From Syncephalis plumigaleata (lineage: Eukaryota; Zoopagomycota; Zoopagomycetes; Zoopagales; Piptocephalidaceae): DNA of 38,810 bases. The notes under the pieces are model-generated. The model saw only the letters and a program-made list of their open reading frames with translations. It was not told the origin of the DNA and made no database searches. The translations under genes and the position numbers were made by a program. The stretch lies in NCBI GenBank assembly GCA_025201365.1, contig JAIXMF010000108.1, positions 1 through 38,810 of the forward strand. The letters are read 5' to 3'. The stretch's first letter is position 1; each line of letters begins with the position of its first letter. Positions 1,338 through 28,481 of this stretch are shown here, piece by piece.

Positions 1338-1362
1338 CATGCTTGCGGAGGGTGTGGTGGGT

Positions 1363-5110: not shown

Positions 5111-5176
5111 TGCAAATGTTGTAAATAACGCTATATAAAATATAATGATAATAGAACGCTTTAACTAGAACTTTGC

Positions 5177-5374
5177 GGTGATGACCGCGAAAGAGAAAAG
5201 GATAAGCGAGAAATATACATGCTCACATTAGGCACTATTTATAGGAGGAAAATCCCAAGTTACTTTATTTAGTTCGATATTAATAAAGAGAAAAGGGTAA
5301 AAGCAAAATATATATTCATGTATAATATTATGAATATTAAAGTAATTTTCTAGAGAATTTATTTGATGAAAATT
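5177..5374 (-). repeat. 5' inverted terminal repeat of the DIRS element
   Basis: Read on the minus strand, this segment matches plus-strand 1177-1337 with few differences, including the blocks CTTTATTAATATCGAACT and TAGTGCCTAATGTGAGCATG. It extends about 30 bp further out than the 3' copy (ATTTTCATCAAATAAATTCT). One terminus longer than the other is also seen in Dictyostelium DIRS-1. It presumably carries the promoter of the element. Confidence 0.8.
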
Positions 5375-5916: not shown

Positions 5917-6390
5917 TTAGCTGATATTAATGTCAGCGCAGTTTTCGTATGGTTCCGTCGTGGTTACGAGATGTTTGGCATCCCAAGTCCATCGTAGCAC
6001 TTTACGACCGCTGATGTTATTGGGAATGTTGATGGTCCATGGTCCCGTTTTACCGGGTGCCGCGCAATCATCCTTCTCGGCGATCTTTTGCGGATTGCTT
6101 AGATTCTCATCTAGAATGTAGACGGCACACGGACCAATGTGTGGAGCGGTGATGTCGAACTGCAGGGTTACCGAGTGGCCCACGTCTGTAACCGTGCCCG
6201 CTGATTCACCACGACACATCTGACCGCCAAGATTGGGATTCTTTAGTGCGTCAATTTCAGAGCTCTTCTTTTCAAATCCTCGTGGCGGTGGATAGGTTAA
6301 GAAGCCATGGGCGGACACATTGACTACATTCAATAGCGTCAATGCTATAACGCAGATAGCGATGCAGGCAAGCATAGAAAGATGCGTCAT
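5917..6390 (-). CDS. LPMO A: secreted AA11-like lytic polysaccharide monooxygenase, catalytic domain only
   Basis: Copper enzyme predicted to cleave chitin oxidatively outside the cell. It is 157 aa from the ATG at 6390. A signal peptide (ACIAICVIALTLLNVVNVSA) ends just before His28, which becomes the N-terminal His of the copper-binding histidine brace. The second brace His is in ITAPHIG (84), and the axial Tyr is in EPYENCAD (148). Four cysteines (59, 88, 109, 151) can form two disulfides. AA11 enzymes share this order of HG..PxPRG, GHSVTL, AxHxGxC and YxNCA motifs. It stops right after DINIS, so it lacks the Gly/Ser linker and tail of its four paralogues. An in-frame ATG at 6504 exists, but a TATA box at 6511-6518 makes the 6390 start more likely. 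Intronless. The AA11 name is inference from motif order. Confidence 0.85.
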   Translation of the reverse strand: MTHLSMLACIAICVIALTLLNVVNVSAHGFLTYPPPRGFEKKSSEIDALKNPNLGGQMCRGESAGTVTDVGHSVTLQFDITAPHIGPCAVYILDENLSNPQKIAEKDDCAAPGKTGPWTINIPNNISGRKVLRWTWDAKHLVTTTEPYENCADINIS

Positions 6391-7053
6391 GTTGAAGATG
6401 AAGGAGTATATCGTAAAATTACTTGTTGACAAGAGCTTAGTACTACAAACTAGATGATATTGAAGGAAGTGGACGATGAATCCATGCTCATTTACTTTTT
6501 CCATTAGATGCTTTTATAGTCTAGTGAACGTCGTCTTATGCATGGATCGTTCATTAGCAATAAACCATATATGAATCATAGTTGCATTTGTCATGTATGG
6601 CATTGCATAAATACTCGTTTACATGTTGTTGTTTGTATTTAATGGCATTACATTTACGAATAGACTTGTTTCATTGGTAGTACTAGTTTGAATTGCAGAC
6701 TAGTAGAAGATTACATTGCATTAATGAAATTAAATACGAGAAAATCACCGACAATGCAAAACATTGAATGATGAGTGAGTTGTTTCACAATGTAATAATA
6801 ATAATAATTGAACATGCGTGTTAATACAGTGCTTACACTATTGTTTTAAAATGCAGATCCATCTACTAAAACGAGACGGCATTAACATAGTTACACGCAT
6901 TAATTAATTGCGATGTTTTATATAGGCAAAGATAATAAACACTATTGACTACAATTGCAGTATTATGTATTGTTTTTATTCGTTATTATACACTAGTGCA
7001 ATCCTGTTGCTTTAGCGTATCATGTGCATATCGCTACAAATGTATAAAGGCAA
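6391..7053. other. Spacer between LPMO A and LPMO B
   Basis: AT-rich. It holds the promoter of A and the 3' UTR of B. The part from about 6935 to 7053 (B 3' UTR) recurs in inverted orientation at about 20125-20242, downstream of LPMO C, with a few single-base indels. An ATAATAATAATAATT run lies near 6795. No gene seen. Confidence 0.55.
6511..6518 (-). promoter_or_regulatory. Probable TATA box of LPMO A
   Basis: TATAAAAG on the minus strand, about 120 bp before the chosen ATG at 6390. An upstream in-frame ATG at 6504 would lie only a few bases from the box, inside or before the likely transcription start, which argues for the shorter protein. Confidence 0.5.
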
Positions 7054-7995
7054 TTAGCCGCAGTAGATGGCACCGGCGGTCTTTTTGCACTTGGTACCAC
7101 TGGCGCAAGTGACCCAGTTGAACTTTTTGCTAGAGCACTGACCGACCTTGTTGCCTTCGCATTTGAATTCACCATCTTGACAGCCATCACCACCTGATGA
7201 CGATGACGATGAAGATGATGATGAAGAATCTGCTTCTGTTTCAGTAGCACTCGTATCCGAGGATGTTGATTCTGCTTCAGTGGTAGTGGTGTCACTAGTA
7301 GTACTATCAGCATCAGTACTGACATCTGATTTCTTTGTTTCAGAGGAGGATTCGTAGCCTTCATCAGTAGCGTCGCTTGAAGAGGGTGTGTTTGATTCAT
7401 CATCAGTCGATTTACTTGATTTCTTCTTATTTGATTTGGATGATTTACTCGATTTCGAATCGGACGAGGAATCTGATGCGCTATCATCGCCATAACTATC
7501 ACTGCTACTGTCACTGCCACCACCACCTCCACCAGAGATGTTGATGTCCGCACATTGTTCATAGTGTTCAATAATGGTCACTTGATGAGCAGCGTCCCAT
7601 TTCCAACGCAACACCTTACGTCCGGTGATATCTGATGGAATCTTGACAGTCCATGGTCCAACCTTGCCAGGAGCGGCACAGCCGTCCTTCGAGGCAATCT
7701 TGCGAGCATTGCCGAGGTTTTCATCAAGAATGTACACTTCACATTTACCAATGTGTGGCGCACTAATCTCAAACTTCAAAGTAACCGAATGACCAACACT
7801 ATTGATTTTACCAGCCTTAGTGATTCCACGGCAAAGCCCTTTGGTGTTAGGATTGCGAACTGCGTCAATGTTGGTTTTAACCAATTCAATACCCCGTGGT
7901 ACAGGATAGCTCATATGACCGTGAGCGGATACGCCAGAAGTATAGGAAAGCAGACTAGCTGCCGGTAGGAGAAGTAACCCAAAAAAAGACAGCAT
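7054..7995 (-). CDS. LPMO B: AA11-like LPMO with Ser-rich linker and C-terminal CBM19
   Basis: Secreted chitin-active oxidase, 313 aa, intronless. Signal peptide 1-24 (MLSFFGLLLLPAASLLSYTS, then GVSA), then the brace His25 (HGHMSYPVPRG), second brace His81 (SAPHIG) and axial Tyr145 (EHYEQCAD). Cys55, 85, 106 and 148 fit two disulfides. Residues 155-271 are a GGGGGG stretch plus a Ser/Asp/Thr/Lys linker, probably O-glycosylated. Residues 272-313 are a six-cysteine module (Cys272, 279, 287, 297, 303, 312; CQDGEFKC, FNWVTCASGTKC) that looks like a CBM19 chitin-binding domain, as in yeast chitinase. This is the only intact copy with a readable CBM. A TATA box lies about 195 bp before the ATG. The catalytic domain and upstream DNA recur at 20282-21850, and the linker, CBM and 3' UTR at 19620-20242. 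Confidence 0.9.
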   Translation of the reverse strand: MLSFFGLLLLPAASLLSYTSGVSAHGHMSYPVPRGIELVKTNIDAVRNPNTKGLCRGITKAGKINSVGHSVTLKFEISAPHIGKCEVYILDENLGNARKIASKDGCAAPGKVGPWTVKIPSDITGRKVLRWKWDAAHQVTIIEHYEQCADINISGGGGGGSDSSSDSYGDDSASDSSSDSKSSKSSKSNKKKSSKSTDDESNTPSSSDATDEGYESSSETKKSDVSTDADSTTSDTTTTEAESTSSDTSATETEADSSSSSSSSSSSGGDGCQDGEFKCEGNKVGQCSSKKFNWVTCASGTKCKKTAGAIYCG

Positions 7996-8754
7996 AGTGT
8001 TAACGGCCGGTGTTACAGTCGAGCGAGAGTTGAGTTCCAGTAATTTATCGTTTGGTCGATGTGTCTAGCAAGAAGGAAAAAAACGTATGACAAGGACCAG
8101 CCAGTGTCAATTGTAGTAGTTGCGATAATGTGGTAGAAGGACGGTTGACGTGATGATATGCTTTGAAATCCATACCCGATATCCACTTTATTTATAATAG
8201 CGAGCGGCATATAGCATATCCTTATTTGCAACCATTCAAATAAATGCAATTGATACGGCGGTCTAATCTCATGCATTTAGCGTTAACAAGCCAATGCCAT
8301 ATATGTCCAGACGATTGCTAAATTCAAAATAGACAAGCTGATGCTCAATTATTAATTGACGAGTGCACCAATGGCGAGAATGAATATCCACATATTTAGT
8401 AATAAGAATGTCCCTATTTATACTTGATAACCAATGGGGGAATCACCGGATAAATTTGAGTTTTAACAAAGGAGCAGCCTACACTCGACTAAGTAAATGG
8501 CTTGGAATGAGCAGTTAAGGAAGCCAGCAAGTTTTCAATTTTACACTGTGCTCTGATTAATCACAATGGATAAAGTATACACCGGTAAACTAGTCCGGTA
8601 AAGACAAACGATGTATTTCCACTAATTGATACTCTGACGTATACTAGCAATAATAATAATACTAATCAATTGAGCAAATATCTTCATATTCAGACATTTG
8701 GAATGGCTAAACATATCATGCATGGTTTATTAGTAACATTCCGCGGGTTATCCC
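7996..8754. other. Upstream region of LPMO B (duplicated, no gene seen)
   Basis: About 760 bp between LPMO B and the I78-like gene. It is nearly identical, in inverted orientation, to 20646-21404. High conservation across a non-coding region points to a recent duplication or conversion rather than selection. Contains the TATA box at 8189-8196 and an (AAT)n run near 8650. Confidence 0.6.
8189..8196 (-). promoter_or_regulatory. Probable TATA box of LPMO B
   Basis: TATAAATA on the minus strand, about 195 bp before the ATG at 7995. The same box at the same spacing precedes LPMO D (21204-21211) inside the duplicated block, so both copies kept it. Confidence 0.5.
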
Positions 8755-9080
8755 TTATCCGAAAAAGATACCCGTTATGATGTTGTCATTTACACGGACG
8801 TTTAGTCGATTCTCGATGAAATCCATCGTGTAGACAGATGATGGTCCAAGTATCCGGTGTGGATTAGGAAGCTTACTTTCATGTACAGTCTGTATTGCAT
8901 AGCGAGAGTAGTGCGTAGTTTTGGTTAGTTCCCTCATCCACCTCCCCCTTCATAGGATGGTATAGTTTGCTATACACCTACCATCGACTCGTCTATTCCT
9001 TCAGCGGCAGTCTCATTATCACGAAGTAGTCGTTTCCCAACTAGTTTCTGCTTCCACGCCTCGATGTCATTATGATTCAT
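8755..9080 (-). CDS. Small I78-like protease inhibitor gene, copy 1 (exon structure uncertain)
   Basis: The second part (8937-8755, 60 codons) contains HRILGPSSVYTMDF followed by IENRLNVRVND and ends ITGIFFG. This is the pattern of peptidase inhibitor family I78: an x-R-I-x-P loop, T-x-DF, RLNV, then a C-terminal Gly. Upstream, an ATG at 9080 opens MNHNDIEAWKQKLVGKRLL, giving the W...LVGK motif that starts these inhibitors. A GTAGGT donor near 8983 and AG acceptors near 8950 suggest an intron of 35-50 bp, but no consensus pair keeps the frame. Either a non-consensus donor is used or the gene is damaged. No signal peptide, so a cytosolic inhibitor is likely. A second copy lies at 20321-20645. 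The family call rests on short motifs. Confidence 0.5.
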
Positions 9081-9307
9081 TGTGAGATACTATGGAAACT
9101 ATACACTATTGTCAAGTTCAATAAATGAGTGAGAGAAAGAAAGGAATGACTAATACACCGTTAAATCCTAGTGATACATGCTGTAATGTAAGGAAAAATA
9201 ATAATCACATGCATGGCTATTGAATCACTCGCACGTTTATGTGTGAGCCTTGTTGACTGAATCAGTCAGAATTCACTATTTGCTATTTCTCTCTTTATTC
9301 TTTTATC

Positions 9308-10674
9308 ATGACTGACACTGCGATATCGATGTTCAAGAAGCGTGGACCTAAAGGTCTACGACGCAAGCGTCCAGCTGAGGATACGACGGCAGATAATGAT
9401 GATTCGGCATCAGATTCCGAATCTGTTGTAGTGCAAAAGAATCAACGAGTTGATCGAAATAATCCGCTAATTCAAGGTACAACAAGCATAATCGGCTCTA
9501 GTACCAAGAAGGGTCGTTGGCGCGAACATATAAACGGCGGCGAGGAGGAGAAAGAGAAGAAAACAAGTAAAGCTAAGGAGGAGGAGGAGGAGGATCTACA
9601 AGTTACATATGCGGCTCGACAAGAAGCGAAGGATAGTGCGTTAAAAGCGCGCGAAGACGCAACACGATCAGCCTGGGACATTCAAGAGGATGATCCAAAA
9701 GCGCAGGCATTGATTAATCAAGCACTAAAGGTAATGGCGGTCTATCGAGGAATGCTAAATGAGTCTAATTGTGTTATGCTACAGGATGCGGAAGCAGATG
9801 GTAATGAATTATATCGTGGTCAAAGCGGTTATCGCAGCTTCCAAACCGAGCGTGATCCTTCTAGTGCTAGCAGTGCAAGTACAGGATTTGCTTTGAATTC
9901 GAAATTACGGCAAGTATTATATTGAGGATAATAGTACACAATATCTATAGTAAGCTAACGCGCTAACTTGGATGAAATAATAGTGCCGGACCAATGCGAG
10001 CACCGGCTAACATTCGCGTAACTTGTCGATTTGATTATCAACCGGATATCTGTAAGGATTACAAAGGTAATACTGAGAAATTAACGATTTATCATCAGTT
10101 GGATGATTACTTACTTTCTAACAATAAACGATTATAGAAACGGGATTCTGTGGCTACGGTGATAGTTGCAAATTCATGCATGATCGTGGCGATTACAAGA
10201 GCGGTTGGCAATTGGATAAGGAATGGGACGAGTCGCATAAGAGTATTGCTAATGGAGGGGATCCGAACGAGTTTCTAGTAGAGAGTGACTCTGACGAGGA
10301 GATTCCATTTGCATGTTTAATCTGTCGACAACCCTTTGACAAGCCAGTTGTTACAAAGTAAGTAATCGATAGGGTAATGAGATGATTGTACGACGATAGC
10401 CAAATATTAATCTGCTGTTCATGATAGATGTGGCCATTATTTCTGTCAGAAATGTGCGCTAAAACGATATGCAAAGACACCGAAGTGTATGGCATGTGGC
10501 GGCCCTACTTCTGGCGTGTTTAAAACGGCCGTTAAAGTACTTGAGAAGATGCGCGAACGAGAGCGACAAAAGCATGAGAATGAAGGCTCGAAGGATAGCG
10601 GAGAAGAGGAAGAAAACTATTTGGATAACCTACCCGTTGAAGGAGAGGGAGCATTAGCAGAGCAAAGCGACTAG
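9308..10674 (+). CDS. CWC24: Pre-mRNA-splicing factor CWC24 / RNF113 (CCCH finger + RING)
   Basis: Spliceosome-associated ubiquitin-ligase-like protein acting at the first splicing step in the nucleus, 383 aa. Exons: 9308-9909, 9984-10066, 10138-10357, 10428-10674. The first ~200 residues are charged and disordered. [18 protein letters not shown] leads into the CCCH finger ([20 protein letters not shown], then MHDR). The RING follows: [18 protein letters not shown] and KCMACGG. Ends Asp/Glu-rich. All parts match the RNF113/Cwc24 order. Intron 1 (9910-9983) has a GC donor (GCAAGT); using it gives the frame that reads into GPMRAP, whereas the GT reading does not. The stop at 9923 seen without splicing is therefore intronic. 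Confidence 0.92.
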
Positions 10675-10978
10675 AGTATTGATCCATTGTTTTCTCGTAG
10701 TTTATTATTTAAATAAGTAAATAGCACAATATGTAAAGTGAATACTAGATTAGATTAAAGAGTAGTATAGATGCAATAGAAAAGTGTTGTAAGTAAATTC
10801 GCGTAAATGATCATCATTCCATTCCGTTCTTACAGGCTTTTTCCATCCAATTTGCGCAGTTAGCTTTCTGTCTTTACGAATAAATAATAATTAACACTTA
10901 CAAGTACAAGTACCCCCGTATTCTGTTTCCCAGCCCCCCTCTGGAGAAGGACTGGGGCGATAGCGATAACCACCGCGG
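10675..10978. other. Spacer downstream of CWC24
   Basis: About 300 bp of 3' flank with no recognisable gene. A short CT/GA-skewed patch lies near 10920-10960. Confidence 0.45.
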
Positions 10979-11176
10979 TTAATTTGTTTTTTGTTGTTTG
11001 GACCCCCGTTGTCCTTGCTCATCATTGCTTGAACGTTTAGAAGGAACGGTACTTCGTTGGAATTGTGTTGGAATACCCTTTCCATTACGAACACTGCGAA
11101 TAATCTGAATGAAGTTCAGACATGCTGCCATATCCCGATTCCATAAACGATCATTAATAGCTACTTGTAAGTACAT
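10979..11176 (-). pseudogene. Remnant of a Fanzor/TnpB-like RNA-guided nuclease gene (C-terminal end)
   Basis: A short reading frame encodes INDRLWNRDMAACLNF followed by IQIIRSVRNGKGIPTQFQR and a basic tail. The NRDxxAAxNF core resembles the last RuvC motif of TnpB and eukaryotic Fanzor proteins (DRDxNAAxNI), and the G-x-P-x-x-F ending is common in fungal transposon-borne copies. The Cys4 zinc ribbon that should precede it and the rest of the protein are absent: upstream on the minus strand there are only stops. I read it as a degraded terminal fragment with little chance of function. Alternatively it is a chance ORF. A perfect short inverted repeat (GATAGTTATCGCTATC) sits upstream near 11238. 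Confidence 0.4.
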
Positions 11177-11509
11177 GACATGACAATATCCAACTATACT
11201 AGTACACTTGTATCGTCTACCTTATATATTTGATAATGATAGTTATCGCTATCAATAAATGATCCATTACTAATACTGAATTGTTATTATTATCATGCTA
11301 TATCAATTGGCATTTCTATGGTAATAATGGTGTTAACAATTGTGCAAATCTATTTATTAGTAAACAGCAAATGTTAAAGGATAAATGCGCTAATTGGATG
11401 GAAAAACACTGTACAAGCACACAAACATACACAAATACGTACACGTGTACATTCCAACTTGTCCTTGATACTATTCGTTCTTCTTTTATTTCCATCTTGT
11501 CAGTTCACC
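11177..11509. other. Spacer upstream of the SmgGDS-like gene
   Basis: AT-rich promoter region. It includes the short palindrome near 11238-11253 and a C/A-rich run (CACAAACATACACAAATACG) near 11420. A CT-rich stretch precedes the ATG at 11510. No gene seen. Confidence 0.45.
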
Positions 11510-14425
11510 ATGTCTAGTGAGGTTGAAGCATCTACTACGGTTCGAGAACCGTCATCTGACTGCGCCAACAATATCGAGCAGTGTTGTGCGCAGTTAAAAA
11601 CGATATCCGAAGAAGTTGAACGGAATCATCCTGTAGACAACGGCAGACTACTTACTCTTGCCGAACAAGCTGCTATCTGGGGTCGTAATGGTAATCAGCT
11701 AACTAACTAGCTAGCTAGCACTTACTATGATAGTATCTTTTGCTTACTTTACTTCTTATACTGCCGCTATCTAGCTAATAACCGGGATATTCTCGGTACT
11801 TCAGGTCTTTTAAAAGTAATATGTGATATTATTGCCAATAAAACTGCACGAGTTGAGGAATCAGCTTATGTCCAGTGTCTACGTGTGGTTGCCAATGCTT
11901 GTGCTGATCATGGTAAGCGTGTTGTTAAATAGGCTAACCTACGATAGCTCATCTACTAGTAATATAGGCGATAACCGTGATATTGTATTGGATAGTCAAT
12001 GCTATGAAACGATCATTTCCTCGCTAAGTGGCTTGCCCGAATCAAACACCATTGTTATCGCCAAATTCGTGATGGCCACCTTGAATAATCTAGCCAACGA
12101 TCATAGTATGTGATTATCATCATCATCGTCATCATCATTATAGGAATACTAGGCTGATATGAATATTAGGTCCATTGAGACAGAAACTATTAAGTGCCAA
12201 TATCATGACCATCATTCCACCATGGTTAGATCCGAGTATGCTTGACAAGGAACCCGATGGTGATGTCGTAGTCGTTTACACAGCTAGACTACTATTCACC
12301 CTTTTGGAAGAAAGTAAGCTTAGAATGATATGTGTAATCAAGTGTGAATGCATTGATGCTCATCTTCGTATCTCTTCCATTAGGTGGATCGATTCTCAAG
12401 TTCCTCGAAGCAGATGGACTTGGCACTATTATTCCATTAGCGGAAAAGCTCTTAACAATGGAGGATCCAAGCGAGAATCCTGCTACTTGCACTGTTCTCG
12501 ATATATTACAGGTTCTAACTGCATTAAATGGTAGGATATTATCACTTGGTATAGATAGATGCACAAGCGTGTAAGCTAACAATAGGGTTAACAATAGAAA
12601 CGGCACAGGAAGCAGTTGGTACATCGAAGCTACTTTACACTTTGATGAATGCAATTGAAAGGAGATACATTAATGAGCAAGGCGATTGTATCGATGAAGA
12701 AAAGAATGACGACGAAGATGACGACAATAACAACAATGACTATAAAGAGTATATTGTGCCAGTACTCATACATGTATTCTCAAGCGGTAAATACAAATAT
12801 AAATAGATAAATATGTATATATAAATATGTATATTAATGACTTATTATTATTGTTTGTCTAGATACCTTGATGTTGCCTCTCTATACCAATGAGAAGGTG
12901 ATGAATCAGCTCATGCGATGGATCAAGTCTAAATCTGAGAAAATGGCAACAGTCGGCTTCCTGTGTCTATGCAACATATCTCGTATTGGTAAGTGCATGT
13001 ATTATTGAGTAGCCTAGTATGCGTATACATATGTATATATTGACATGCTAATACGTTATTATACATACATCCATGCATACATACATACAGAGAAAGTTGC
13101 AACAGGATTACTCACAGAATGGCAAGTAATGCCGCAATTACATTATTGGCTAAAGAATAGCACTGAACCATCGACAAAGCATGCTATCATTGGACTACTT
13201 AGAAATATGGCCGTACCATGTAATTGCCACTAATATCGTGTAGTAATGTATACCGCTAACTAGAAAATGTAACACTAAATAGATTCAAATCCACTAAAGA
13301 TATACAGCAATGATCTTATGATACTACTTGCTCCATTAGTCAACCATTCAATGCAAGCCATATATGCCAAGGTCATTGTACTACTCAAGATTATGACTAG
13401 ACCATTGTCGCAACAAGGTAATCAATGATTGTGATGATGATGTTTTGTAAACAATACCGTTTAACATTTATGTCTATATATATATATATATGTTATATAG
13501 AGAGTAGCAATGAAGAATGCGCCAAATCCATCTGTACATCCTCATCTCCTGGTAACGAAGCAATTATTACGCGTGTATACCGATTGCTTGAAACAGCAAC
13601 CGATGACACGACAAAGAACGAGTCATATCGCTTAATCGGACATCTTATTCGATATGGTTGGGATTCCAGTGTCAATGCAAATAGTGAGTAGACAAACATA
13701 TACATATAAGCACCTTCAATAGATCACATTAATTAACAGTGATAATATAGCGGCTAGTGTGATTCGTGCCTCTTTATTGGCACATTTAGTGTTCCCATCT
13801 TTTGTGGAATTCACCGTTACAAACAAGCATCCTATGCTGTTTAACGAATGTCTAAACACACTCACAATTGTAGCCGAAAAGGCCGATACATGTAAGTGGA
13901 GCAAGCGCATAAACTCAATCAACCCACTACTCTACTTATCTAACAATGATGATACTAGTTGATCTCCTAGAGAAAGAGATATTCAAGTCACATACCATTA
14001 CAAGTCAAGCAGAACCGGGTCAAACAGGAGCCGTGCCACCACCGACATCAGTGAATCTGTGTAGTAAAATAGTAAATCTGCTAAAGGAGAATGATCCAAA
14101 ATTACCCATAGAATATCGATCCAATGCAATAACATTCCTGGATGTATTCATGCATGCCGGTAAGAAGTCTATTGGTGGTAAGTTATAGCATTGAATTAGC
14201 AATGTAATATCAAATTGTATTCACCCTTTACTAACCAATCTCGAATATCAAGTACGCGGTTCAACAATGCAGAGAATGTTAACCCACGTATATCCTGTCA
14301 TTGTCGATCAACTGGCGAAAGATCCTGAACCTGTCAGTAAGGAAGTTAAGAGCAAGGCTGAGACACTAGCTCAATTCTTAGAAGAATACAAGATGATATA
14401 TGTCTTGAATCGTTATAACTATTAA
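11510..14425 (+). CDS. SmgGDS-like armadillo-repeat protein (RAP1GDS1 homologue)
   Basis: Predicted cytosolic armadillo protein that binds small GTPases (chaperone/GDP-dissociation stimulator type), 674 aa. Thirteen exons: 11510-11690, 11775-11912, 11968-12105, 12170-12313, 12384-12530, 12598-12786, 12863-12988, 13091-13219, 13283-13417, 13501-13683, 13751-13891, 13959-14159, 14253-14425. All twelve introns are phase 1 and every internal exon is a multiple of three, so exons correspond roughly to repeat units. Typical repeat text: NNRDILGTSGLLKVICDII, then VVANACADHGDNRD and TLNNLANDHS. An acidic Asp/Asn loop lies in exon 6. Repeat periodicity and the NACADxxxNR motif fit RAP1GDS1; a different ARM protein cannot be excluded. 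Confidence 0.72.
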
Positions 14426-14553
14426 ACAAGTCCAATGCATATAGCACTATTCTACAACATACTCGTTTCTTATTAAGATGCATGATTGCATATGTAACAA
14501 TTGTAATAATAATAGTACTAATAGTAGTAACGTTTATTAGAACTGTCGTTCAA

Positions 14554-14889
14554 TTAAAGTGGCTTAGCAGGCAACTGCGTCAATAGAATGTTGCATCGTT
14601 TCTTAAGTGTAACGCGTTGACGTGAGTATTTGTCGTCAGGCGAGAAGCGAGCTATTATCAGCAAGATTAGTTATACTGTATTACACACGCTTGTCATGCT
14701 AAATACCTGGATGAGCCGACTTGGTTACAGCGCCTTTAGGGGAGGCTTTCTACGATAGTTTGATTGAGTAGAACAACGAGTTAATATATATATATGTATA
14801 TATGTGTGTATACTGATTCCACAAGTACAACTAACCTTAAGCGTATAGACACGCTTGCCATCGGCTCCTTCGTAGTACATGAGATGCAT
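14554..14889 (-). CDS. NOP10: H/ACA snoRNP subunit NOP10, 64 aa
   Basis: Core protein of H/ACA ribonucleoprotein, which pseudouridylates rRNA and snRNA in the nucleolus. Three exons: 14889-14836, 14749-14707, 14651-14554. The assembled protein reads [18 protein letters not shown], then [20 protein letters not shown], then [13 protein letters not shown] and a short tail. This matches NOP10 end to end, including length (64 aa, as in human). Too short and split to appear as one open frame. It stands head to head with AATF (start 15059), with 169 bp between the two ATGs. Confidence 0.95.
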
Positions 14890-15058
14890 GGTTAGCTTTG
14901 ATTTAAACGATAAACCGGCAAGTCAATCTGATGATCTTCGTAGTTAAGGGTAAATAACCGCTAAAGTGATAAGGAAAGAACGAGTTGAAAAGTAGAAAAA
15001 AAAAAGTAGAAAAAAGCAAAAATATTTCTTTTTTATTTCTTCAAGTCATTCCATCAAC

Positions 15059-18680: not shown

Positions 18681-18705
18681 GGGGGAGGGGGGGGGGGGGG
18701 GGGGG
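18681..18705 (+). repeat. Poly-G homopolymer tract (G5-A-G19)
   Basis: Simple-sequence run with strong G-quadruplex potential, unusual in this AT-rich region. The exact length may be unreliable in an assembly. Confidence 0.85.
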
Positions 18706-18893
18706 TGAAACAGCACTGTACTCTCGGCATTTCTCATTCGGGCTTTATAGAGGCCTATGTAACATATCGGTGTGGGGGCTAAACATAGCGACCAGTTTAG
18801 TCAAAGTGTAAAGAGACTGGTGCTTGCACACATACACACACACCCATCATTTAGCATGTTTATAGAGTAGGACAGCGATGAACCCAAATTAGA

Positions 18894-18901
18894 TATAAAT
18901 A
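18894..18901 (+). promoter_or_regulatory. Probable TATA box of LPMO C
   Basis: TATAAATA about 270 bp before the ATG at 19169. LPMO E has a similar box about 300 bp before its ATG, so these two related genes share a long leader. Confidence 0.4.
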
Positions 18902-19168
18902 AGCGAGGTGATAGGAAAGTAACATATGCACTTTATTCGAATAACCTCTTCTTACGTCTTCTTCTACAACGACTACCGCTACCAATTTTGTTCTACGATA
19001 ACACAACTTGGGCTGTGCCTATTGATTTGTGTTCATTTTCTGTTAACTGCCCTTCAAGTAGCCAACTTTACCTCACGATTCAAGGTTAAGCAATCTAAAA
19101 GTACTTCCTGCTGCTGTTGACCGGTACTCTTCACTCCAACAATACACGTACTTTCGATAAAATCAAAC

Positions 19169-20143
19169 ATGATCCACTCTATCACTTCCTCTACCGCAAT
19201 GCTATGCGCATTTGCGGTTACTGCCCTTTCGGTCGTTTCTAGCGTGTCCGCTCATGGTTACCTGTCAAGTCCAACTCCTCGTGGCATTGAGAAGCTTTCC
19301 TACCAGATAGATGACTTGAAGTCACCTAACACCAAGGGTATTTGCCGTGATGAGCCAGCCGGCAAGGTAACCAATGTTGGACATTCGGTCACTCTTGGAT
19401 TCACTATCACAGCGCCACACATTGGCATGTGCGAGGTGTATATTCTCGATGAGAATCTCGGTAATGCTCGCAAGATCGCCTCCAAAAAAGACTGTGTCGC
19501 TACTGGCAAGGTTGGTTCATGGACTGTCAATATTCCATCAGATATCAGTGGACGTAAAGTACTACGCTGGAAATGGGACGCTGCTCATCTAAAAACTACT
19601 ATTGAACATTATGAACAATGTGCCGACATCAACATCTCTGGTGGTGGAGGAGGTGGTAGTAGTGACAGTAGCAGTGATAGTATGGGCGATGAGATAGCGC
19701 ATCAGATTCCTCGTCCGATTCGAAATCGAGTAAATCATCCAAATCAAATAAGAAGAAATCAAGTAAATCGACTGATGATGAATCAAACACACCCTCTTCA
19801 AGCGACGCTACTGATGAAGGCTACGAATCCTCCTCTGAAACAAAGAAATCAGATGTCAGTACTGATGCTGATAGTACTACTAGTGACACCACTACCACTG
19901 AAGCAGAATCAACATCCTCGGATACGAGTGCTACTGAAACAGAAGCAGATTCTTCATCATCATCTTCATCGTCATCGTCATCAGGTGGTGATGGCTGTCA
20001 AGATGGTGAATTCAAATGCGAAGGCAACAAGGTCGGTCAGTGCTCTAGCAAAAAGTTCAACTGGGTCACTTGCGCCAGTGGTACCACAGTGCAAAAAGAC
20101 CGCCGTGCCATCTACTGCGGCTAATTGCCTTATACATTTGTAG
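19169..20143 (+). CDS. LPMO C: AA11-like LPMO with CBM19 tail read out of frame
   Basis: Secreted LPMO of E type fused to a B-type tail. Signal peptide 1-28 ends VSSVSA; brace His29 (HGYLSSPTPRG), second His in ITAPHIG, axial Tyr in EHYEQCAD. The catalytic domain is closest to LPMO E (shared QIDDLKSPNTKGIC). From about 19620 the DNA matches the linker, CBM19 and 3' UTR of LPMO B. A net +2 change near 19681-19694 (ATGGGCGATGAGATAG against TATGGCGATGATAG in B) shifts the frame, so the tail becomes a basic, meaningless sequence (MGDEIAHQIPRPI and on) that ends at 20143. The six-cysteine module is therefore not made. Further +1 and -1 changes lie near 20084 and 20104. Either a damaged chimera or assembly error; the catalytic part is intact. 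Confidence 0.8.
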   Translation: MIHSITSSTAMLCAFAVTALSVVSSVSAHGYLSSPTPRGIEKLSYQIDDLKSPNTKGICRDEPAGKVTNVGHSVTLGFTITAPHIGMCEVYILDENLGNARKIASKKDCVATGKVGSWTVNIPSDISGRKVLRWKWDAAHLKTTIEHYEQCADINISGGGGGGSSDSSSDSMGDEIAHQIPRPIRNRVNHPNQIRRNQVNRLMMNQTHPLQATLLMKATNPPLKQRNQMSVLMLIVLLVTPLPLKQNQHPRIRVLLKQKQILHHHLHRHRHQVVMAVKMVNSNAKATRSVSALAKSSTGSLAPVVPQCKKTAVPSTAANCLIHL

Positions 20144-20320
20144 CGATATGCACATGATACCTAAAGCAACAGGATTGCACTAACGTATAATAACGAATAA
20201 AAACAATACATAATACTGCAATTGTAGTCAATAGTGTTTAATAATGTGTTGAATTTGTAATGACAAGTTAATAAATTTATTGAACTTGACAATAGTGTAT
20301 AGTTTCCATAGTATCTCACA

Positions 20321-20645
20321 ATGAATCATAATGACATCGAGGCGTGGAAGCAGAAACTAGTTGGGAAACGACTACTTCGTGAAATGAGGCTGCCGCTGAA
20401 GGAATAGACGAGTCAATGGTAGGTGTATAGCAAACTACACCATCCTATGAAGGTGAAGGAGGATGAGGGAACTAACCAAAGCTACGCACTACTCTCGCTA
20501 TGCAATACAGACTGTACATGAAAGTAAGCTTCCTAATCCACACCGGATACTTGGACCATCATCTGTCTACACGATGGATTTCATCGAGAATCGACTAAAC
20601 GTCCGTGTAAATGACAGCATCATAACGGGTATCTTTTTCGGATAA
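20321..20645 (+). pseudogene. I78-like inhibitor gene, copy 2 (first exon frameshifted)
   Basis: Inverted duplicate of 8755-9080. The second part (20463-20645) differs from copy 1 at two residues of 60 and keeps HRILGPSSVY, RLNVRVND and ITGIFFG. In the first part a one-base loss after CTTCGTGA (copy 1 GATAATGAG, here GAAATGAG) brings a stop at 20405-20407. With no consensus splice pair that removes it, this copy is probably non-functional unless an unseen upstream start or splice is used. Confidence 0.5.
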
Positions 20646-21404
20646 GGGATAACCCGCAGAATGTTACTAATAAACCATGCATGATATGTTTAGCCATTCC
20701 AAATGTCTGAATATGAAGATATTTGCTCGATTGATTAGTATTATTATTATTACTAGTATACGTCAGAGTATCAATTAGTGGAAATACATCGTTTGTCTTT
20801 ACCGGACTAGTTTACCGGTGTATACTTTATCCATTGTGCTTAATCAGAGCACAGTGTAGAATTGAAAACTTGCTGGCTTCCTTAACTGCTCATTCCAAGC
20901 TATTTACTTAGTCGAGTGTAGGCTGCTCCTTTGTTCAAACTCAAATTTATCCGGTGATTCCCCCATTGGTTATCAAGTATAAATAGGGACATCCTTATTA
21001 CTAAATATGTGGATATTCATTCTCGCCATTGGTGCACCCGTCAATTAATAATTGAGCATCAGCTTGTCTATTTTGAATTTAGCAATTGTCTGGACATATA
21101 TAGCATTGTCTTGTTAGCGCTAAATGTATGAGATTAGACCGCCGTATCAATTGCATTTATTTGAATGGTTGCAAATAAGGATCTGCTATATCCCGCTCGC
21201 TAGTATAAATAAAGCGGATATCGGGTATGGATTTCAAAGCATATCATCACGTCAACCCTCCTTCTACCACACTATCGCAACTACTACAATTGACATTGGC
21301 TGGTCCTTGTCATACGTTTTTTTCCTTCTTGCTAGACACATCGACCAAACGATAAATTACTGAAACTCAACTCTCGCTCGACTGTAACACCGGCCGTTAA
21401 CACT
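20646..21404. other. Duplicated promoter region upstream of LPMO D
   Basis: Inverted near-identical copy of 7996-8754, including the TATA box at 21204-21211. No gene seen inside. Confidence 0.6.
21204..21211 (+). promoter_or_regulatory. Probable TATA box of LPMO D
   Basis: TATAAATA about 195 bp before the ATG at 21405, the same sequence and spacing as in front of LPMO B. Confidence 0.45.
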
Positions 21405-22153
21405 ATGCTGTCTTTTTTCGGGTTACTTCTCCTACCGGCAGCTAGTCTGCTTTCCTATACTTCTGGCGTATCCGCTCACGGTCATATGAGCTATCCCGTA
21501 CCACGGGGTATTGAATTGGTTAAACCAACATTGACGCTGTTCGCAATCCTAACACCAAAGGGCTTTGCCGTGGAATCACTAAGGCTGGTAAAATCAACGA
21601 TGTTGGTCATTCGGTTACTTTGAAGTTTGAGATTAGTGCGCCACACATTGGTAAATGTGAAGTGTACATTCTTGATGAAAACCTCGGCAATGCTCGCAAG
21701 ATTGCCTCGAAGGACGGCTGTGCCGCTCCTGGCAAGGTTGGACCATGGACTGTCAAGATTCCATCGGATATCACCGGACGTAAGGTGTTGCGTTGGAAAT
21801 GGGACGCTGCTCATCAAGTGACCATTATTGAACATTATGAACAATGTGCCGACATCAACATTAGTGGTGGTGGCAGTAACAGTAACAGTAAGAGTAGCAA
21901 TACCAGTAGCAGTGACGAAGGTAAAGTGAATGATAGCGATGAAAGCCAAAAAGATAGCGACAAGAAGAGTAGCAAGAAAAATAATGCAAATGGCGAGGAT
22001 AACGATACAAGCGAGAACGAAGAAGAAGATAAAAGTAAGAAACAGGACCGAAATAAGAAGAACGATGAAGACAAGAAGAAGAAGAAAGAAAATGAAGACA
22101 AGAAGAAGAAAGAGGAAGAAGAAGATGGTAATAACAATGTTGATGAGGAATAG
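21405..22153 (+). pseudogene. LPMO D: B-type LPMO with frameshift and a Glu/Lys-rich tail
   Basis: The start matches LPMO B exactly through HGHMSYPVPRGIELVK. One A is then missing (B has TTAAAACC, here TTAAACC near 21522), so translation from the ATG ends at 21623 after 72 codons. From about 21600 the B-type frame resumes in the other frame: second brace His in SAPHIG, axial Tyr in EHYEQCAD, through DINISGGG. After about 21850 the match to B stops and a new tail of ~95 residues follows, first Ser/Asn-rich and then alternating Glu/Lys (runs such as KKKKKENEDKKKKEEEE), ending at 22153. The break is a single base in an A-run, so a sequencing error is a real option; if corrected, the gene would be a full LPMO of the same family. 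Confidence 0.8.
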
Positions 22154-22660
22154 GACGATGAAGAACGGGATAGCGGCGAATATACTACTTGTAAAGAGTA
22201 GTCATATTAGCTACTAGAGTATCCTTGTATATCTTTAAGATGATCTGAATAAAGTATTTGTAACAGACAATTTGTTGGAATGATTAAACGATGCATTATT
22301 AATAAATATGCAGCGGCGTACTATTCGCTACCTTCCTTATGCTGCAAATGAGAGATTAGATGTATTTTGTACAGAGCTATTTACATCATAGCATACCATA
22401 GAGCATAGTTTAAAGATTAATGATCATGGTAATTTCCATACACTGATGCTAGTATATTATTTCTATACTAATGCATGCTTCCAATGTTATCTGTTTGTAG
22501 TAAGATCATATCTGTGTAACAATATAATTCACTACGCATATCCACTAATAGGTTGATCGTTACACTTTACATGAACTACATTGTTCTGCCACGTTAATTA
22601 GCAATACTTACGAAGATAGCTTAACGATGATCAGTATTAGGACTAAAAGTATCAAGCAGA
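22154..22660. other. Spacer between LPMO D and Gemin7
   Basis: About 500 bp, AT-rich, convergent 3' ends on both sides. No gene or repeat seen. Confidence 0.45.
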
Positions 22661-23032
22661 TTATAAAGTCAAAGATATCGATTGAACATCGTCATGTCGA
22701 AGTAATGCTTCAGGATATTGACCAATAGGAGTGTTCAACTTGCCTACACGATAATGCGTCTCTTGTGCATGTGTACTTTTCAATACGGCTGTAACGTTAG
22801 ATCTACAGGTAAAATAAACAAAGCAATTTCAGTATTGTGTCATTCATAACAAACAAACAAACAAATGGTATTACCCGTCTACAAGTTGAAATGTAGCCAA
22901 AGGTTGCTGCTCCGTGATCTTGAGCCAAATATCCAAACAACGAGCGCGTAACTCGTATCTCGCCTCCTTGTTCTCGTCCTCACTCATCGTATTATCTTTA
23001 TGTTCGCTAATCTTGTTTGATTCGACTTGCAT
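22661..23032 (-). CDS. Gemin7 homologue (SMN complex), 99 aa
   Basis: Sm-like protein of the SMN complex, which loads Sm rings on spliceosomal snRNAs. Two exons: 23032-22875 and 22802-22661, joined in phase 2 across a 72 bp GT-AG intron. Residues ~20-50 (RYELRARCLDIWLKI, LATFQLVDGSNVTAVLK) form the first Sm strands. The C-terminal half reads YRVGKLNTPIGQYPEALLR followed by HDDVQSISL, matching the Gemin7 signature (QLxTPIGxxxEALLRxxDIxS). It is split, so it does not show as one frame. An in-frame ATG at 22987 is a shorter alternative start. It stands head to head with the DDT/WHIM/PHD gene, 376 bp apart. Confidence 0.88.
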
Positions 23033-23408
23033 CACACACACACATATATATATATCCTAGTTGAATTTATCGGTCAACCAGTACTATATGTCTATTATTA
23101 CAAAGTGATACACGAGTACGAAAAGTGAAGACAATCTGGAAGGAGCCCGCTCACTTGCTCATTTTCAATCTTTATAAAAGTTGTCTCACGAATTTGAACT
23201 TTTCATCTTCACGGAGCGCTCTCCGTTCACTTTTCCTTTTTTTTCTCCTGCTTCTATGACAGCCACTGATTAAACATATAATTTCTATTATTATTCCGCT
23301 ATTATTGTCTTATCACTACGTTTACTACAGTAGCTAGCTGTTTCGGAAGTAGTGTTGGCGGTTAGAATAGAAGACGATTCAATCGCTGTATCATTATCCA
23401 CTATTGTT
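23033..23408. promoter_or_regulatory. Shared upstream region of Gemin7 and the DDT/WHIM/PHD gene
   Basis: 376 bp between divergent start codons. Contains (CA)n/(TA)n runs near 23033-23060 and a GGAGCGCTCTCC palindrome at 23214-23225. No gene seen. A bidirectional promoter is inference from spacing. Confidence 0.4.
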
Positions 23409-26109
23409 ATGGTAACCACACGAGTGCCACGCCAGGCTGCGAGCGACGCAGGTAAATCCGCGTCGCCAGCCACGAGCAAACGAGCGTCGACAACGACAAA
23501 GGAACAAACGACACCGTCACAATCAGCTAGCTTCAATGAGGTTGCAGCTTCTCCTTTAGAGGAATTGCGTGGTTTGTGGCAGTTCGCGGCTATCGTACAG
23601 TTCTTTGAACTATTCCGCGCTTCCTATCAAGTGGATGACGTGGGCACAGAGGTAAGTAGTAGTGGGCATAGTAAGATATACGTCATGTTATGTCAAATTG
23701 CTGATAATTATCAATAGAAAATTGAACAAGCTTTCCTAGATGAATATAATCCATTTCTACGCGATATAGCCATTCAATTGTTGAAACCATTGACTACTAG
23801 TCGTGCACTAAAGTAAGCAACATATAACAGTGTATCGCCAGTTGATTTACTCTTAATTACACGCTATAGCAATGAGACTTGGGCACAATTAATAAGAAAT
23901 GAATTTATTAAACGGGATCCGGAAGCATTACCGGCAACCTGGCGTGTTAATGAGACTGTAGATTCAGCGACAGAATCTGACGCTCAATCGAAATTAACGG
24001 ATGAAGAAGTGTCCACATCGACAAGTTGGAACTTTTTCGATCTCTCGTTATTTGAAAAGGTATGCTCATAACAACTTACTAAGTGAATGAATGAATTACT
24101 GCTTAATACTAATCCGTTATAGGTTATGACTATGCATTACTTGTGTGAATGGCAATTTGATGAGCCAGAAAAGTTCAGAGAACGCGTAAAGAACGATGAA
24201 GATGCGGCAGATTGGGTGAGCCAATGTATCGACTAGACGATAGAATGACGACTAATAATATTGCATGTTATTAGCGTGTCCTCCCTATTGGATACGATTC
24301 TAAATACAAGACATATTGGCTTTTTGATGGTAATAGCATAGATGCAGAACATGCGTATATATACACACACATATATATATGATCAGAATATTAATAATTA
24401 GCAACAATAGATAATCGACTTTACTGTCAACATCCATTGCCACGACCAAAGAAGGCGTCCGTCAAAGCGGCTGCTCAAAAGAAAAAGAAGCTAGCTTCTA
24501 ATGGTAGCGGTGTAGCAGATGTGGAAGATACAGAACCAGCCTGGGAATTGGTAAGTACGCGTGTAGATGTACGCTTTTAGTTATCTAAAACTATTTAGAT
24601 ATGCAGCAATAAGGAAGACTGGTTGGCCTTTACCGGTCAATTTAAAGGTACCAAGAACCGAGTCGAGAAAGAACTGGTACAATTCGTAAATAATGAATTA
24701 TTACCGCGGATCATTCCTGAATTTGAGGTAGGTTACACATATAGAGAACACTGTTGTATATCATCGATAGCATACTCAACGAGTATAGGCCAAAGAGAAG
24801 GAACGAGAGAAGGAGTTGGCGATACTCAATCGTAAACGATCATCGCGTATTATTATGAAGGAGATCGAGCGTGCGCAACATCAGGAGGAACAAGCGCGAC
24901 ATCGTTTAATCGAAGAGAGACGACAGGCGGAGAAGCAGCGCATTAGGAAAGAAAATAAAGTGAGTGGATTAATGGTAGAAATAGTCATATAAATTAATTG
25001 AGATTAATACTAGGAACGAAAAGAACGATGGGAGGCTCGTGAGCTGCGTGCACTAGAGAAAGAGCAAAAGGGCGTGCTAGAACAGAAAGAGCAACCAAAG
25101 CAGATCGAACAAGATATTTACGGTGAATTACGCGCTTCTACACGTCATCGCGAGACACGTAAACGAAAGAGGGTTGTAGAACAGGTGGATTTCGACTGTA
25201 TATGCGGACAACATGGACATGAATATGTGAGTTAGTTAGCAACGCGTAATTATGATTATCATCTTGGCTAACTTGTAATGTATGAAGAATGACGAGCAAC
25301 CCACGGTTACTTGTCAACGATGTGGCGTACTTCAACATTTGTACTGTGTCGAGGAAGACTATCCAGCAGATGCACCAACACCAGACTGGTCGCATTACTA
25401 TTGTAGCCATTGTCAGAAGATACGGGAAGAGCGTGAACGCGAAGAGGAAAGAATACGCGAGAGGAAGCGGCGTCGCGAGGAGAAGAAGCAACAAATGAAG
25501 TATGACTATCTTCATCATTACAGGGATGAGCATCTATTATCATCAAGTCAACAGGACACGGATGGTGACATTGACATTGAGGATACCAGTGATATGGATA
25601 GTAATATTAGTGTTTATGGCTCTGGTATATCTACAACTGCCACACCATCTAGCTCGCTCGTCGATGTTAATGGTTCATCGCAAGAAACGGCACTAGCCTC
25701 GCATATTAAACGAATTCATTTGCGTTTACCTGAATCATCAGCGTCAATGGCATCATTACCCTTACTACCACCTCAAGCCTTAGTAGCACAACCGAGTGTT
25801 GATGATCACCTGGATATAAGACCAGTTCAACAGTATGTCACTCCCTCCAATGGTTCAACCGTCCTACCAACTACTGATAAGCCGGTGACAGTATCACAAC
25901 CATCCGTATCACAATCAGCGTATTTCCCTCACATTACTCCTACTGATACTACTGATACTGATACTACTGATACTACCACCAACTTGGCAGTGCCCGTCAC
26001 ATTATCAGCAGCAATCGCAACTACAGCAGAGCTTGAAACACATACCCCCACGCATGATAATGGTGAGAGGAATGACGCGTCGTCTTTACCGTCTTCCTCG
26101 TCCACCTAG
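23409..26109 (+). CDS. DDT/WHIM/PHD-finger chromatin-remodelling subunit (RSF1/CECR2-like)
   Basis: Predicted nuclear accessory subunit of an ISWI-type remodeller, 716 aa. Exons: 23409-23651, 23718-23812, 23870-24059, 24123-24215, 24275-24329, 24411-24550, 24599-24727, 24789-24959, 25014-25226, 25288-26109. Order of domains: DDT (LRGLWQFAAIVQFFELFRAS, residues ~45-110), WHIM (FDLSLFEKVMTMHYLCEW, then LPIGYDSKYKTYWLFDDNRL, ~160-250), a long charged coiled coil (~320-400), and a PHD-type finger (CICGQHGH, CQRCG, HLYCVEED, YYCSHCQ, ~435-490). The C-terminal ~220 residues are Ser/Thr/Pro-rich and disordered. The whole architecture fits RSF1; which remodeller it serves is not shown by the sequence. 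The start is the first ATG in frame with the DDT domain. Confidence 0.82.
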
Positions 26110-27545
26110 CATGTATATCCATTTTTGATGTGCGCCTATTTGCCTCGTGTGCTTTTACACCATCCTTCCTCCCCCTCATCCCTCACCAACTTTCGTTCTC
26201 TATCCATGGCTTGTTATGGTAGGAGTAGCACAGAAGAGTATGCTAACATTGTAAGCATGCCTTTTCTTCGTCTGGATACAAAATCAACTGATAAAGATGT
26301 GATTATTTTCAGCAACATATTAAGCTATTATTATTGCTGTTATTATTCTATTTCTATTTGATAAATTATTAGAGCTTGTCAATTAATTGCTACTACCTGT
26401 CTAGTTTGTTATTCAACAACAATAAATCTACTCTATATTTTTACTTCTTGCGGGAATTAGTCCAATTTAGTTTGTTGTTGCTACACACGTCGCTCGAGCA
26501 TTTGAAACATGCCCTTAGTTTACTCGGCATATACGTTGATTGCCGGCAACGATAATGCTGATGATGATGGTATGGTAGTACAAGGATCATACAACGTATC
26601 ACTTCACTTTCATCAGTAAGGTCTGCTGAGGCTGTTCTGTCGCCACAACATTAGCCATTATTTGCTGCTTGTATGAAGTAAGGAGCGGCATCGTGATAAT
26701 AATAACAGCAGCCATTTATTCATTAGTAACGACGTACAGAATAGTTGTATCGTATCATACTTGTTTTGATAATGCTTAATCAGCAGTAATGTATCAAGCA
26801 ATGATAAAGTATTAAAATGTAGCCATTCCTTTTAATATTAAAATAAACGTTGCTTATTTCCCGCATTACGTATGATAATGGTAATGGGAATGATGATAGC
26901 AAACCACATATCTAATAGTTAAAGTAGTAACATGTGCATCTTTACTGAATATGGTAATATCTTCATAATGTGCCTTGCTATTTCTCTATTGCACATAATG
27001 GTAATCATCATAAAGAGAAAGGAGGGAAAGGATTGTCGCCTATAATTAAACTGGGCGAGTGAGAAAGGAAAGGAAGAAAGTAAACTGAGGTAGCACGGCC
27101 CTCTACGAAGCTGATACCCGTTAGAGATGCTCGAGCGAGCGGATGAGGCGAAGGTAACGCAACGAGAAAAACGACCAGTACTGCCCAGAGAGTATTGCGA
27201 TAATGTATTGCGATAAAGAGTTGCTTGTGCGTCAACGACTATATAAACAGGAATGATATCGAGTAATTTCTTCTAATACTACATCACCTCAACAACAAAC
27301 GACAAACCATCACTATTCGATCTTTACGAAGGCTGTGCCTTTCTATCTTGCTCTCTTGCTCTCTAGCTAGCTTACACTTGGTGTGATCCTCGTTAAATCT
27401 CGACTAAATATCGTTATTGATTTTATCTTTTTCTTTCATTGAACGGGCCGGTTCTCGCTTCAAGAAATCATCCAGCTGTACGCTACGCTCATATCTATAT
27501 ATACATACGTTAAACGAAGAGTTATTCAAGTCAACAATTGCCATC
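26110..27545. other. Spacer between the DDT/WHIM/PHD gene and LPMO E
   Basis: 1.4 kb, AT-rich, no supportable gene. The distal part holds the LPMO E promoter: a TATATAAA box at 27240-27247, then a CT-rich leader of about 300 bp (with CTTGCTCTCTTGCTCTCTAG near 27350). Confidence 0.5.
27240..27247 (+). promoter_or_regulatory. Probable TATA box of LPMO E
   Basis: TATATAAA about 300 bp before the ATG at 27546. The long leader between them is CT-rich and has no in-frame coding sense; a leader intron is possible but not shown. Confidence 0.4.
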
Positions 27546-28481
27546 ATGACTCGTATCACCTCTGCTTTCGGTTGGTCCGTGTGCGCCTCTGCCCTCGTAG
27601 CCCTATCGGCCATCTCAGGTGTATCCGCTCATGGCTACCTATCGAGCCCATCTCCTCGTGGTATCCAGAAGGTCTCCTACCAGATAGATGACTTGAAGTC
27701 ACCTAACACCAAGGGTATTTGCCGTGGTGAGTCAGCCGGCAAAGTAACCAATGTTGGGCATTCGGTCACTCTTGGATTCACTATCACAGCGCCACACATT
27801 GGCATGTGCGAGGTGTATATTCTCGATGAGAATCTCGGTAATGCTCGCAAAATTGCCTCGAAGGACGGCTGCGCCGCTCCTGGCAAGGTTGGTCCATGGA
27901 CTGTCAATATTCCATCGGATATCAGTGGACGTAAAGTGCTACGCTGGGTATGGAATGCTGCTCATCTAGTAACTACTATTGAGCACTATGAACAATGTGC
28001 CGACATCAACATCTCCGGTGGAGGTGGTGGCGGTAGTGGTAGCGGTGACAGTGATAATGGAAGCACTGATGGTGGTAGTGATACCACAACTCCAGCCACT
28101 CCCGATGATAAAGGCAGTAGTAAGGGTGGTAAGGGTGGTAAGGGTGGCAAGAGCGGTAAAGGTGGAAAGAAGAGCCCAGATACTGGTGCCGACACCGACA
28201 CTGGAAATGATAAGTCTGATAATGCCGATGCCGATACTGATACTGGAAACGACAAATCAACTGAAAACAAGTCTGATGATGCCGATGCCGATACTGATAC
28301 TGGAAAAGGCAAATCAACTGGAAATGAAAAGTATGGTGGCGCCGATGCTGATGAGCAAGACTCACCCAATGGCAAGGACAAGAATAAAGACAAGGGATCC
28401 AATGGAAAGAACAAGAAGGAAAAGAACAAGAAGAAAAAGAATAAGAAACAACGCAAGCCAAAGGAATACTATGAAGAGTAA
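27546..28481 (+). CDS. LPMO E: AA11-like LPMO with Gly/Asp/Lys-rich tail
   Basis: Secreted copper oxidase, 311 aa, intronless. Signal peptide 1-28 (ends AISGVSA), brace His29 (HGYLSSPSPRG), second His in ITAPHIGMC, axial Tyr in EHYEQCAD. The catalytic domain is almost the same as that of LPMO C. After DINISGGGGGG the tail has no cysteine module. It is a Gly/Ser/Asp stretch, then KGGKGGKGGKSGKGG, then repeats of the type DADTDTGNDKS, and finally a strongly basic end (KNKKEKNKKKKNKK). The acidic-repeat-then-basic design could bind charged cell-wall polymers, but that is inference. The start chosen at 27546 gives a clean signal peptide; the frame is open further upstream but includes leader sequence. 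Confidence 0.9.
   Translation: MTRITSAFGWSVCASALVALSAISGVSAHGYLSSPSPRGIQKVSYQIDDLKSPNTKGICRGESAGKVTNVGHSVTLGFTITAPHIGMCEVYILDENLGNARKIASKDGCAAPGKVGPWTVNIPSDISGRKVLRWVWNAAHLVTTIEHYEQCADINISGGGGGGSGSGDSDNGSTDGGSDTTTPATPDDKGSSKGGKGGKGGKSGKGGKKSPDTGADTDTGNDKSDNADADTDTGNDKSTENKSDDADADTDTGKGKSTGNEKYGGADADEQDSPNGKDKNKDKGSNGKNKKEKNKKKKNKKQRKPKEYYEE

Follow-up and report, generated by a model that had tools for sequence, protein, structure and literature searches.

Genes for lytic polysaccharide monooxygenases (LPMOs) of family AA11 are known in zoopagomycotan mycoparasites (Ahrendt et al. 2018, PMC6784888); the excerpts available of that study, as of the other papers cited here by PMC number, define what we say of it, and they describe no tail architecture, cluster or recombination for the AA11 genes while mentioning CBM19 on a GH19 protein. 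Disordered C-terminal regions have been reported for 34% of AA11 (PMC8615602), and permuted block order is a described signature of circular intermediates in human segmental duplications (PMC7450558). A search of a restricted literature collection found nothing that combined Syncephalis with LPMOs; its nearest matches were a study of Olpidium phylogeny that mentions the S. plumigaleata genome, an Auricularia genome paper that mentions LPMOs and gene conversion, and three papers, PMC6784888 among them, that mention AA11 together with CBM19. Here we describe five AA11-type genes, LPMO A to E, on a contig of Syncephalis plumigaleata (JAIXMF010000108.1, here C11). The whole contig of 38,810 bases was analysed as the window, and the assembly holds 32.6 Mb in 383 contigs. 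The genes encode a catalytic domain (head) that in four cases is followed by a tail. The cluster is real, with tail and promoter modules that moved between its loci, whereas the out-of-frame CBM19 module noted in LPMO C by an earlier reading of the window (the sequence-only reading) is probably an artefact. As a whole, the account we favour, with a little better than even confidence, is that recombination moved tails and promoters within the AA11-type cluster of a mycoparasite, and that the frame breaks on C11 are probably consensus errors. This would make the locus a concrete, datable case in which recombination at the conserved head-tail border let a mycoparasite re-pair its chitin-active catalytic domains with promoters and binding tails.

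Tails and promoters shared between loci

The same five genes occur on C112, a contig of 2.35 Mb (2,349,014 bases) in the same assembly. C11 is collinear with C112:1556756-1598231 at 96.5-97.8% identity, each side having private insertions, and the small contig C344 begins at C112:1600776, next after C11. Three further loci of the family (C1/C23, C112:1610k/C344 and C168/C376) were likewise found as contig pairs, with 94.6-98.0% identity over the longest alignments. The collinearity and the further paired loci indicate that C11 represents the second haplotype for a section of C112. Non-haploidy is reported as common in Zoopagomycota (PMC6784888) and in zygomycetes (PMC10386755), consistent with the paired contigs. 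As all five frames are open on C112, it was taken as the intact haplotype for head and tail comparisons.

On C112, the heads of B and C differ at 107 of 387 sites (280/387 nucleotides identical) and their tails at only 7 of 498 (491/498 identical; Fisher P 5e-34). Synonymous divergence (dS) between the two genes is 1.13 in the heads and 0.038 in the tails, and their carbohydrate-binding modules are identical across 41 residues. The head of C is instead closest to that of E (90% protein identity, dS 0.26), and the head tree rejects a B+C clade (p-AU 0.0055; 0.013 with D left out and the relative P0010 added). The switch between the two levels of similarity falls in the last head codons and the Gly-rich run that follows. 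Tail and 3' untranslated region (3'UTR) travel together, and homology ends sharply past the 3'UTR.

A second module is common to B and D. Across the B copies of both haplotypes, the region upstream of D is 97.4-98.7% identical to that of B (98.3% within C112, 97.4% within C11), and the signal peptides also match. In the whole assembly this upstream region has four copies, those of B and D on both haplotypes, and its flank gave one short match. The two ends of the 2.2 kb B unit adjoin between C and D, about 31 bases apart, on both haplotypes. B is oriented opposite to the C-D interval and the block order is circularly permuted, both ends of the unit being joined in the partner locus. Even when 3 mismatches were allowed, a 32-base pattern taken from the C-D spacer matched nowhere else in the window. 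Given the tail shared by B and C, the upstream region shared by B and D, and the permuted C-D interval, we infer that tails and promoters moved between genes by ectopic recombination near the DINIS-Gly codons.

Such recombination, occurring in the last head codons and the Gly-rich run, would have given B and C a common CBM19-like tail with its 3'UTR, and B and D a common promoter with its signal peptide. Both transfers were probably one event via a copy of the unit in circular (or tandem) form, and an intermediate of one or the other kind is likely. The likeness to the duplications of PMC7450558 lies in the permuted order of the B unit relative to the C-D interval; those duplications are human and exceed 20 kb, whereas here the unit is 2.2 kb, the genome is fungal and a tandem array may also have been the route. 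In its most specific form, which we put forward tentatively, B would have been born in one step: C and D recombined at the DINIS-Gly codons and released a small circle comprising the promoter, signal peptide and head of D and the chitin-binding tail of C, which was reinserted in inverted orientation 11-13 kb away, the three loci having exchanged sequence since. If true, this would be the origin of a new wall-degrading enzyme with re-paired targeting.

The other route, to which we give a modest chance, is birth and death in a tandem array without any circle: C, two tandem B units and D would have stood in a row, and two deletions by unequal crossing-over between heads would have joined the C head to a B tail and a B promoter to the D head, the inverted B being separate. 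The final order would be identical to that of the circle route, the genes are close and their heads similar enough for recombination, and a short spacer of the kind seen where the unit ends join can be carried by tandem-duplication junctions. However, more steps are needed (an inverted duplication, a tandem duplication and two deletions), and with four upstream copies in the assembly, no tandem B copy is left on either haplotype.

As to direction, transfer from the C-D interval to B is somewhat more likely, which would make B a chimera of a D-type promoter and head with a C-type tail. The carbohydrate-binding modules closest to those of B and C belong to P0002 (33/41) and P0003 (32/41), and the heads of these proteins lie closer to E and C, a placement that lacks starred support. 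The nearest relative of the B head outside this genome is P0010 (74% to B, 61% to the D head of C112), which has a charged tail and no carbohydrate-binding module. The direction is favoured because the P0002 and P0003 modules sit on heads nearer to E and C, and because the tail of P0010 is charged. Weighing against it, the argument depends on three proteins, the gene model of P0010 may be incomplete, and no single tree contained both P0010 and D.

The features of the cluster are listed in Table 1. The splice sites of the gene resembling I78-type peptidase inhibitors were placed by eye. This gene was duplicated along with the LPMO promoter, and the public model of D (P0004) joins part of the upstream I78-like gene to the LPMO.

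Table 1 Features of the LPMO cluster in the window (C11).
Feature	Position	Strand	Content
LPMO A	5917..6390	-	Apparent signal peptide and AA11-type head; stop directly after DINIS, no tail
B unit	6933..9126	-	Upstream region with I78-like gene, signal peptide, head, tail, 3'UTR
LPMO B	7054..7995	-	Apparent signal peptide, head (to 7537), Ser-rich linker, six-Cys CBM19-like module (about 7057-7200)
I78-type peptidase-inhibitor-like gene in B unit	8755..9080	-	Two exons; sub-threshold in Pfam (20.7 vs 23.6 bits)
LPMO C signal peptide and head	19169..19641	+	Signal peptide apparent; head nearest to E
LPMO C tail and 3'UTR	19642..20243	+	B-type; Ser-rich linker and CBM19-like module; frame broken on C11, open on C112
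Spacer, C 3'UTR to D upstream region	20244..20274	+	About 31 bases; meeting point of B-unit ends
D upstream region and D signal peptide	20275..21475	+	Holds I78-like gene at about 20321-20645
LPMO D gene	21405-22153	+	Signal peptide, head, tail
LPMO D head and tail	21476..22153	+	Tail Lys/Glu/Asn/Ser/Asp-rich; frame broken on C11 in N-terminal part of head
LPMO E	27546..28481	+	Apparent signal peptide, head, Gly/Lys/Asp-rich tail with internal 57-base repeat

Catalytic heads and tail types

The five genes had been proposed as AA11-like LPMOs from the letters of the window, and their number, positions and family held up. All five pass Pfam LPMO_10 (PF03067) in a six-frame scan of the genome. 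At the level of the window proteins, A, B, C and E exceed the cut-off and the D fragment falls just below it (21.0 vs 23 bits); LPMO_10 outranks AA9 for four of the five, the D fragment showing the reverse. Pfam returned no match named AA11 for the five proteins, and in NCBIfam none of A, B and E matched an LPMO family. When the family profile was compared with PDB sequences, the first three ranks were AA11 enzymes (AoAA11, 4MAH; AfAA11A, 7P3U; AfAA11B, 9EXJ), followed by an AA9 entry at 5.7e-3. The head shows the LPMO beta-sandwich fold, with 26-29% identity to AA11 structures in structural alignment. With signal-peptide cleavage placed by eye, the heads of A to E start HGF, HGH or HGY. Among 19 sequences H57 is invariant and Y121 nearly so, and these positions were also aligned to AfAA11A. 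The head is most likely an AA11 LPMO, since the three best solved relatives of the profile are AA11 and the copper-site residues are kept. Less favourable to this assignment, the fold comparison does not separate AA11 from AA10, and with B alone as the query 7p3u is followed by AA9 and AA10 entries, with no further AA11.

The Syncephalis heads have in common with AA11 LPMOs the second His in A-x-H, the axial Tyr in E-x-Y and, after it, a C-A-D stretch that leads to the Gly-rich start of the tail. Unlike in the AA11 structures, the head is short and the tail is CBM19-like or charged. The C112 proteins, all with open frames, have 157 (A), 320 (B), 323 (C), 249 (D) and 310 (E) amino acids, including heads of 129-130 and tails of 0, 166, 166, 95 and 153, respectively; the architecture of A on C11 is repeated there. 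All four tails open with a Gly-rich stretch that immediately follows DINIS (which reads DSNIS in D on C112), and A ends at this point, so the border drawn by the sequence-only reading stands. Its description of the catalytic domains as nearly the same was overstated, as identity among the five C112 heads ranges over 60-90% at the protein level and 58-91% at the DNA level. Ratios of nonsynonymous to synonymous change (dN/dS) are 0.18-0.32 in 6 of 10 head pairs, dS not being estimable for the four pairs with A; these values indicate that the heads are under purifying selection and kept functional.

A CBM19-like module closes the tails of B and C, those of D and E are charged and of low complexity, and A is tailless. 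The module previously called CBM19 in B does have six Cys residues, but the window tail on its own gave no Pfam CBM_19 match. A genome scan with this family (PF03427) found 9 places, 3 of them over the cut-off, and all 9 lie elsewhere than the window tails, while the relatives P0017 and P0018 pass. The kinship is therefore argued through relatives, hence the name CBM19-like. Small six-Cys modules are likewise found in CBM19 and CBM14-type chitin-binding modules, and Der p 23, the CBM14 of chitotriosidase and Avr4 are among the best matches to the predicted fold. Besides the PF03427 result, it counts against a chitin-binding assignment that unrelated folds score as high as those of CBM14 for the window tail. 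The D and E tails resemble disordered LPMO C-terminal regions rather than a known targeting module. They and the B and C linkers have the low-complexity, charged or Ser-rich character of the disordered tails in PMC8615602; unlike in those LPMOs, one tail is here common to neighbouring genes with different heads.

A likely role, to judge by family knowledge and lifestyle, would be the oxidative loosening of host-wall chitin. The proteins would be secreted, bind copper at H1/H57/Y121 and oxidatively cleave the chitin of fungal walls, B and C being held on the substrate by their anchoring CBM19-like tail. That the source might be a mycoparasite had been surmised from the letters, and the organism is indeed a Syncephalis. 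One further family member (C112:1610140-1611057 / C344:13905-14852) has a CBM19-like tail and, on both haplotypes, a predicted mature N-terminus of Asn in place of the brace His (SVSANGY); it is possibly a non-catalytic LPMO-like protein.

The sequence-only reading had presented the family as actively diversifying its targeting tails, frameshift included, around a constant core. Part of this survives, in that head-tail pairings vary among relatives and the heads are conserved by selection, yet B and C differ far less in their tails than in their heads. Heads no more similar than tails had been named as a refuting observation; the pair B/C shows this, D and E do not. A recognisable targeting module is present in only two of the five genes, and the two carry one shared tail; moreover, the frameshift in C is missing from the other haplotype. 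In three Syncephalis fuscata homologues (P0006, P0012 and P0013) the tails look out of frame relative to their siblings, which speaks for active diversification but was judged by eye from proteins, not DNA; these tails may be assembly errors or real. Overall, we regard active diversification as improbable.

Frame breaks on the window haplotype

The C11 copy of C loses its frame in the linker and carbohydrate-binding part, and the C11 copy of D does so towards the N-terminal end of the head. The CBM19 of C was correctly read as out of frame on C11, but its open frame on C112 makes an assembly error the better explanation. The break in D had been overlooked, only the in-frame part of the gene having been noticed. 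Single-base indels of the repeat were examined in the upstream region and in the tail/3'UTR from after the linker; 8 of 9 sit in or next to columns that vary among the copies. This holds for 4 of 5 in the upstream alignment (background 11.0%, binomial P 7e-4) and for 4 of 4 in the tail/3'UTR alignment (background 11.8%, P 2e-4). By location, four are in the C11 tail/3'UTR of C (two coding), one in the C11 upstream region of D and four in that of C112. No isolated single-base indel occurs in the D head alignment. Among eight family gene pairs compared (A to E and three others), 14 of 16 copies are open, the exceptions being C and D on C11. As the indels track the differing columns and only repeat copies on C11 are broken, the broken frames are probably mixed-template consensus errors.

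A programmed frameshift giving alternative tails was rejected for C: its frame is open on C112, and its C11 tail DNA is nearly identical to that of B, so there is no record of selection in another frame.

Some points detract from the consensus-error explanation, which was drawn from the assembled sequence. The first frame breaks of both C and D lie outside the tested stretches, and only 2 of the 4 tested tail indels are in coding sequence. By eye, the first break of C falls in the linker, which varies in length among copies and contains several indels, and that of D at a column where the D of the other haplotype differs. The position of the first breaks, together with the fact that both frames are broken on the same haplotype, would fit C and D being real haplotype-specific pseudogenes. 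We consider this unlikely, given that the only two broken copies of the 16 lie in a near-identical repeat whose other indels coincide with mixed sites.

The D head also differs between haplotypes. That of C11 agrees with the B head of C112 at 7 of 7 allele-distinguishing sites, with 1 private difference in 382, the two being one indel and one substitution apart; in the D head of C112, private differences amount to 70 in 383. A search of the assembly for a donor of the latter found none close, the best other match (84%) being its own allele. Together with upstream copies of D that are mosaics of B alleles, the head identity could mean ongoing gene conversion. Here too there are difficulties for our account. 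The two D heads are 64-95% identical by 50-nt window, and either of them may be the original. The D upstream mosaics have few private sites (4/1201 and 5/1198) and would result from true gene conversion and from read mixing alike; mixing would weaken fine-scale inference in the C-D interval.

It is conceivable, at somewhat less than even odds, that mixed-in B reads account for part of the B-type sequence in the C-D interval of C11, the B-type D head included, as an artefact. Besides the placement of the indels, this is favoured by the match of the D head on C11 to the B allele of the other haplotype, while the C tail on C11 is mostly like the B of its own, and by the intact frames of both copies in the six other family gene pairs compared. 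However, C112 too has a B-type C tail and a B-type region upstream of D, with equal spacer and boundaries. Because the sharing is also present there, mixing can explain the frame breaks and perhaps the D head on C11, but not the shared tail. The locus also carries a warning that frame-broken LPMO copies in heterozygous assemblies of early-diverging fungi may be consensus errors, the risk lying where near-identical paralogues meet two haplotypes.

Neighbouring genes and haplotype-specific insertions

Unrelated housekeeping genes were said to be interleaved with the LPMOs, and this was not confirmed: of three open reading frames between them searched in Pfam, two matched no family and the third gave PHD and Nop25 matches below threshold. 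A clear housekeeping gene, MtnA, lies at 33867-34862, outside the LPMO interval. Single-base indels relative to C112 cluster at 33500-38700, near the right end of C11; three are inside a weakly TMEM254-like open reading frame (37481-37783), and they probably reflect low consensus quality. At 1175-5372, C11 carries a DIRS-type retroelement that is absent at the matching site of C112. It is bounded by inverted repeats and has reverse transcriptase and Dam-like matches above cut-off, with weak RNase H-like and integrase-type matches. Conversely, a 5.8-kb insert just upstream of B (C112:1562891-1568651) is found on C112 only. Its long open frames appear, by eye, to encode the gag and protease-reverse transcriptase-integrase of a retrotransposon, and its junction has a 7-base overlap suggestive of target-site duplication.

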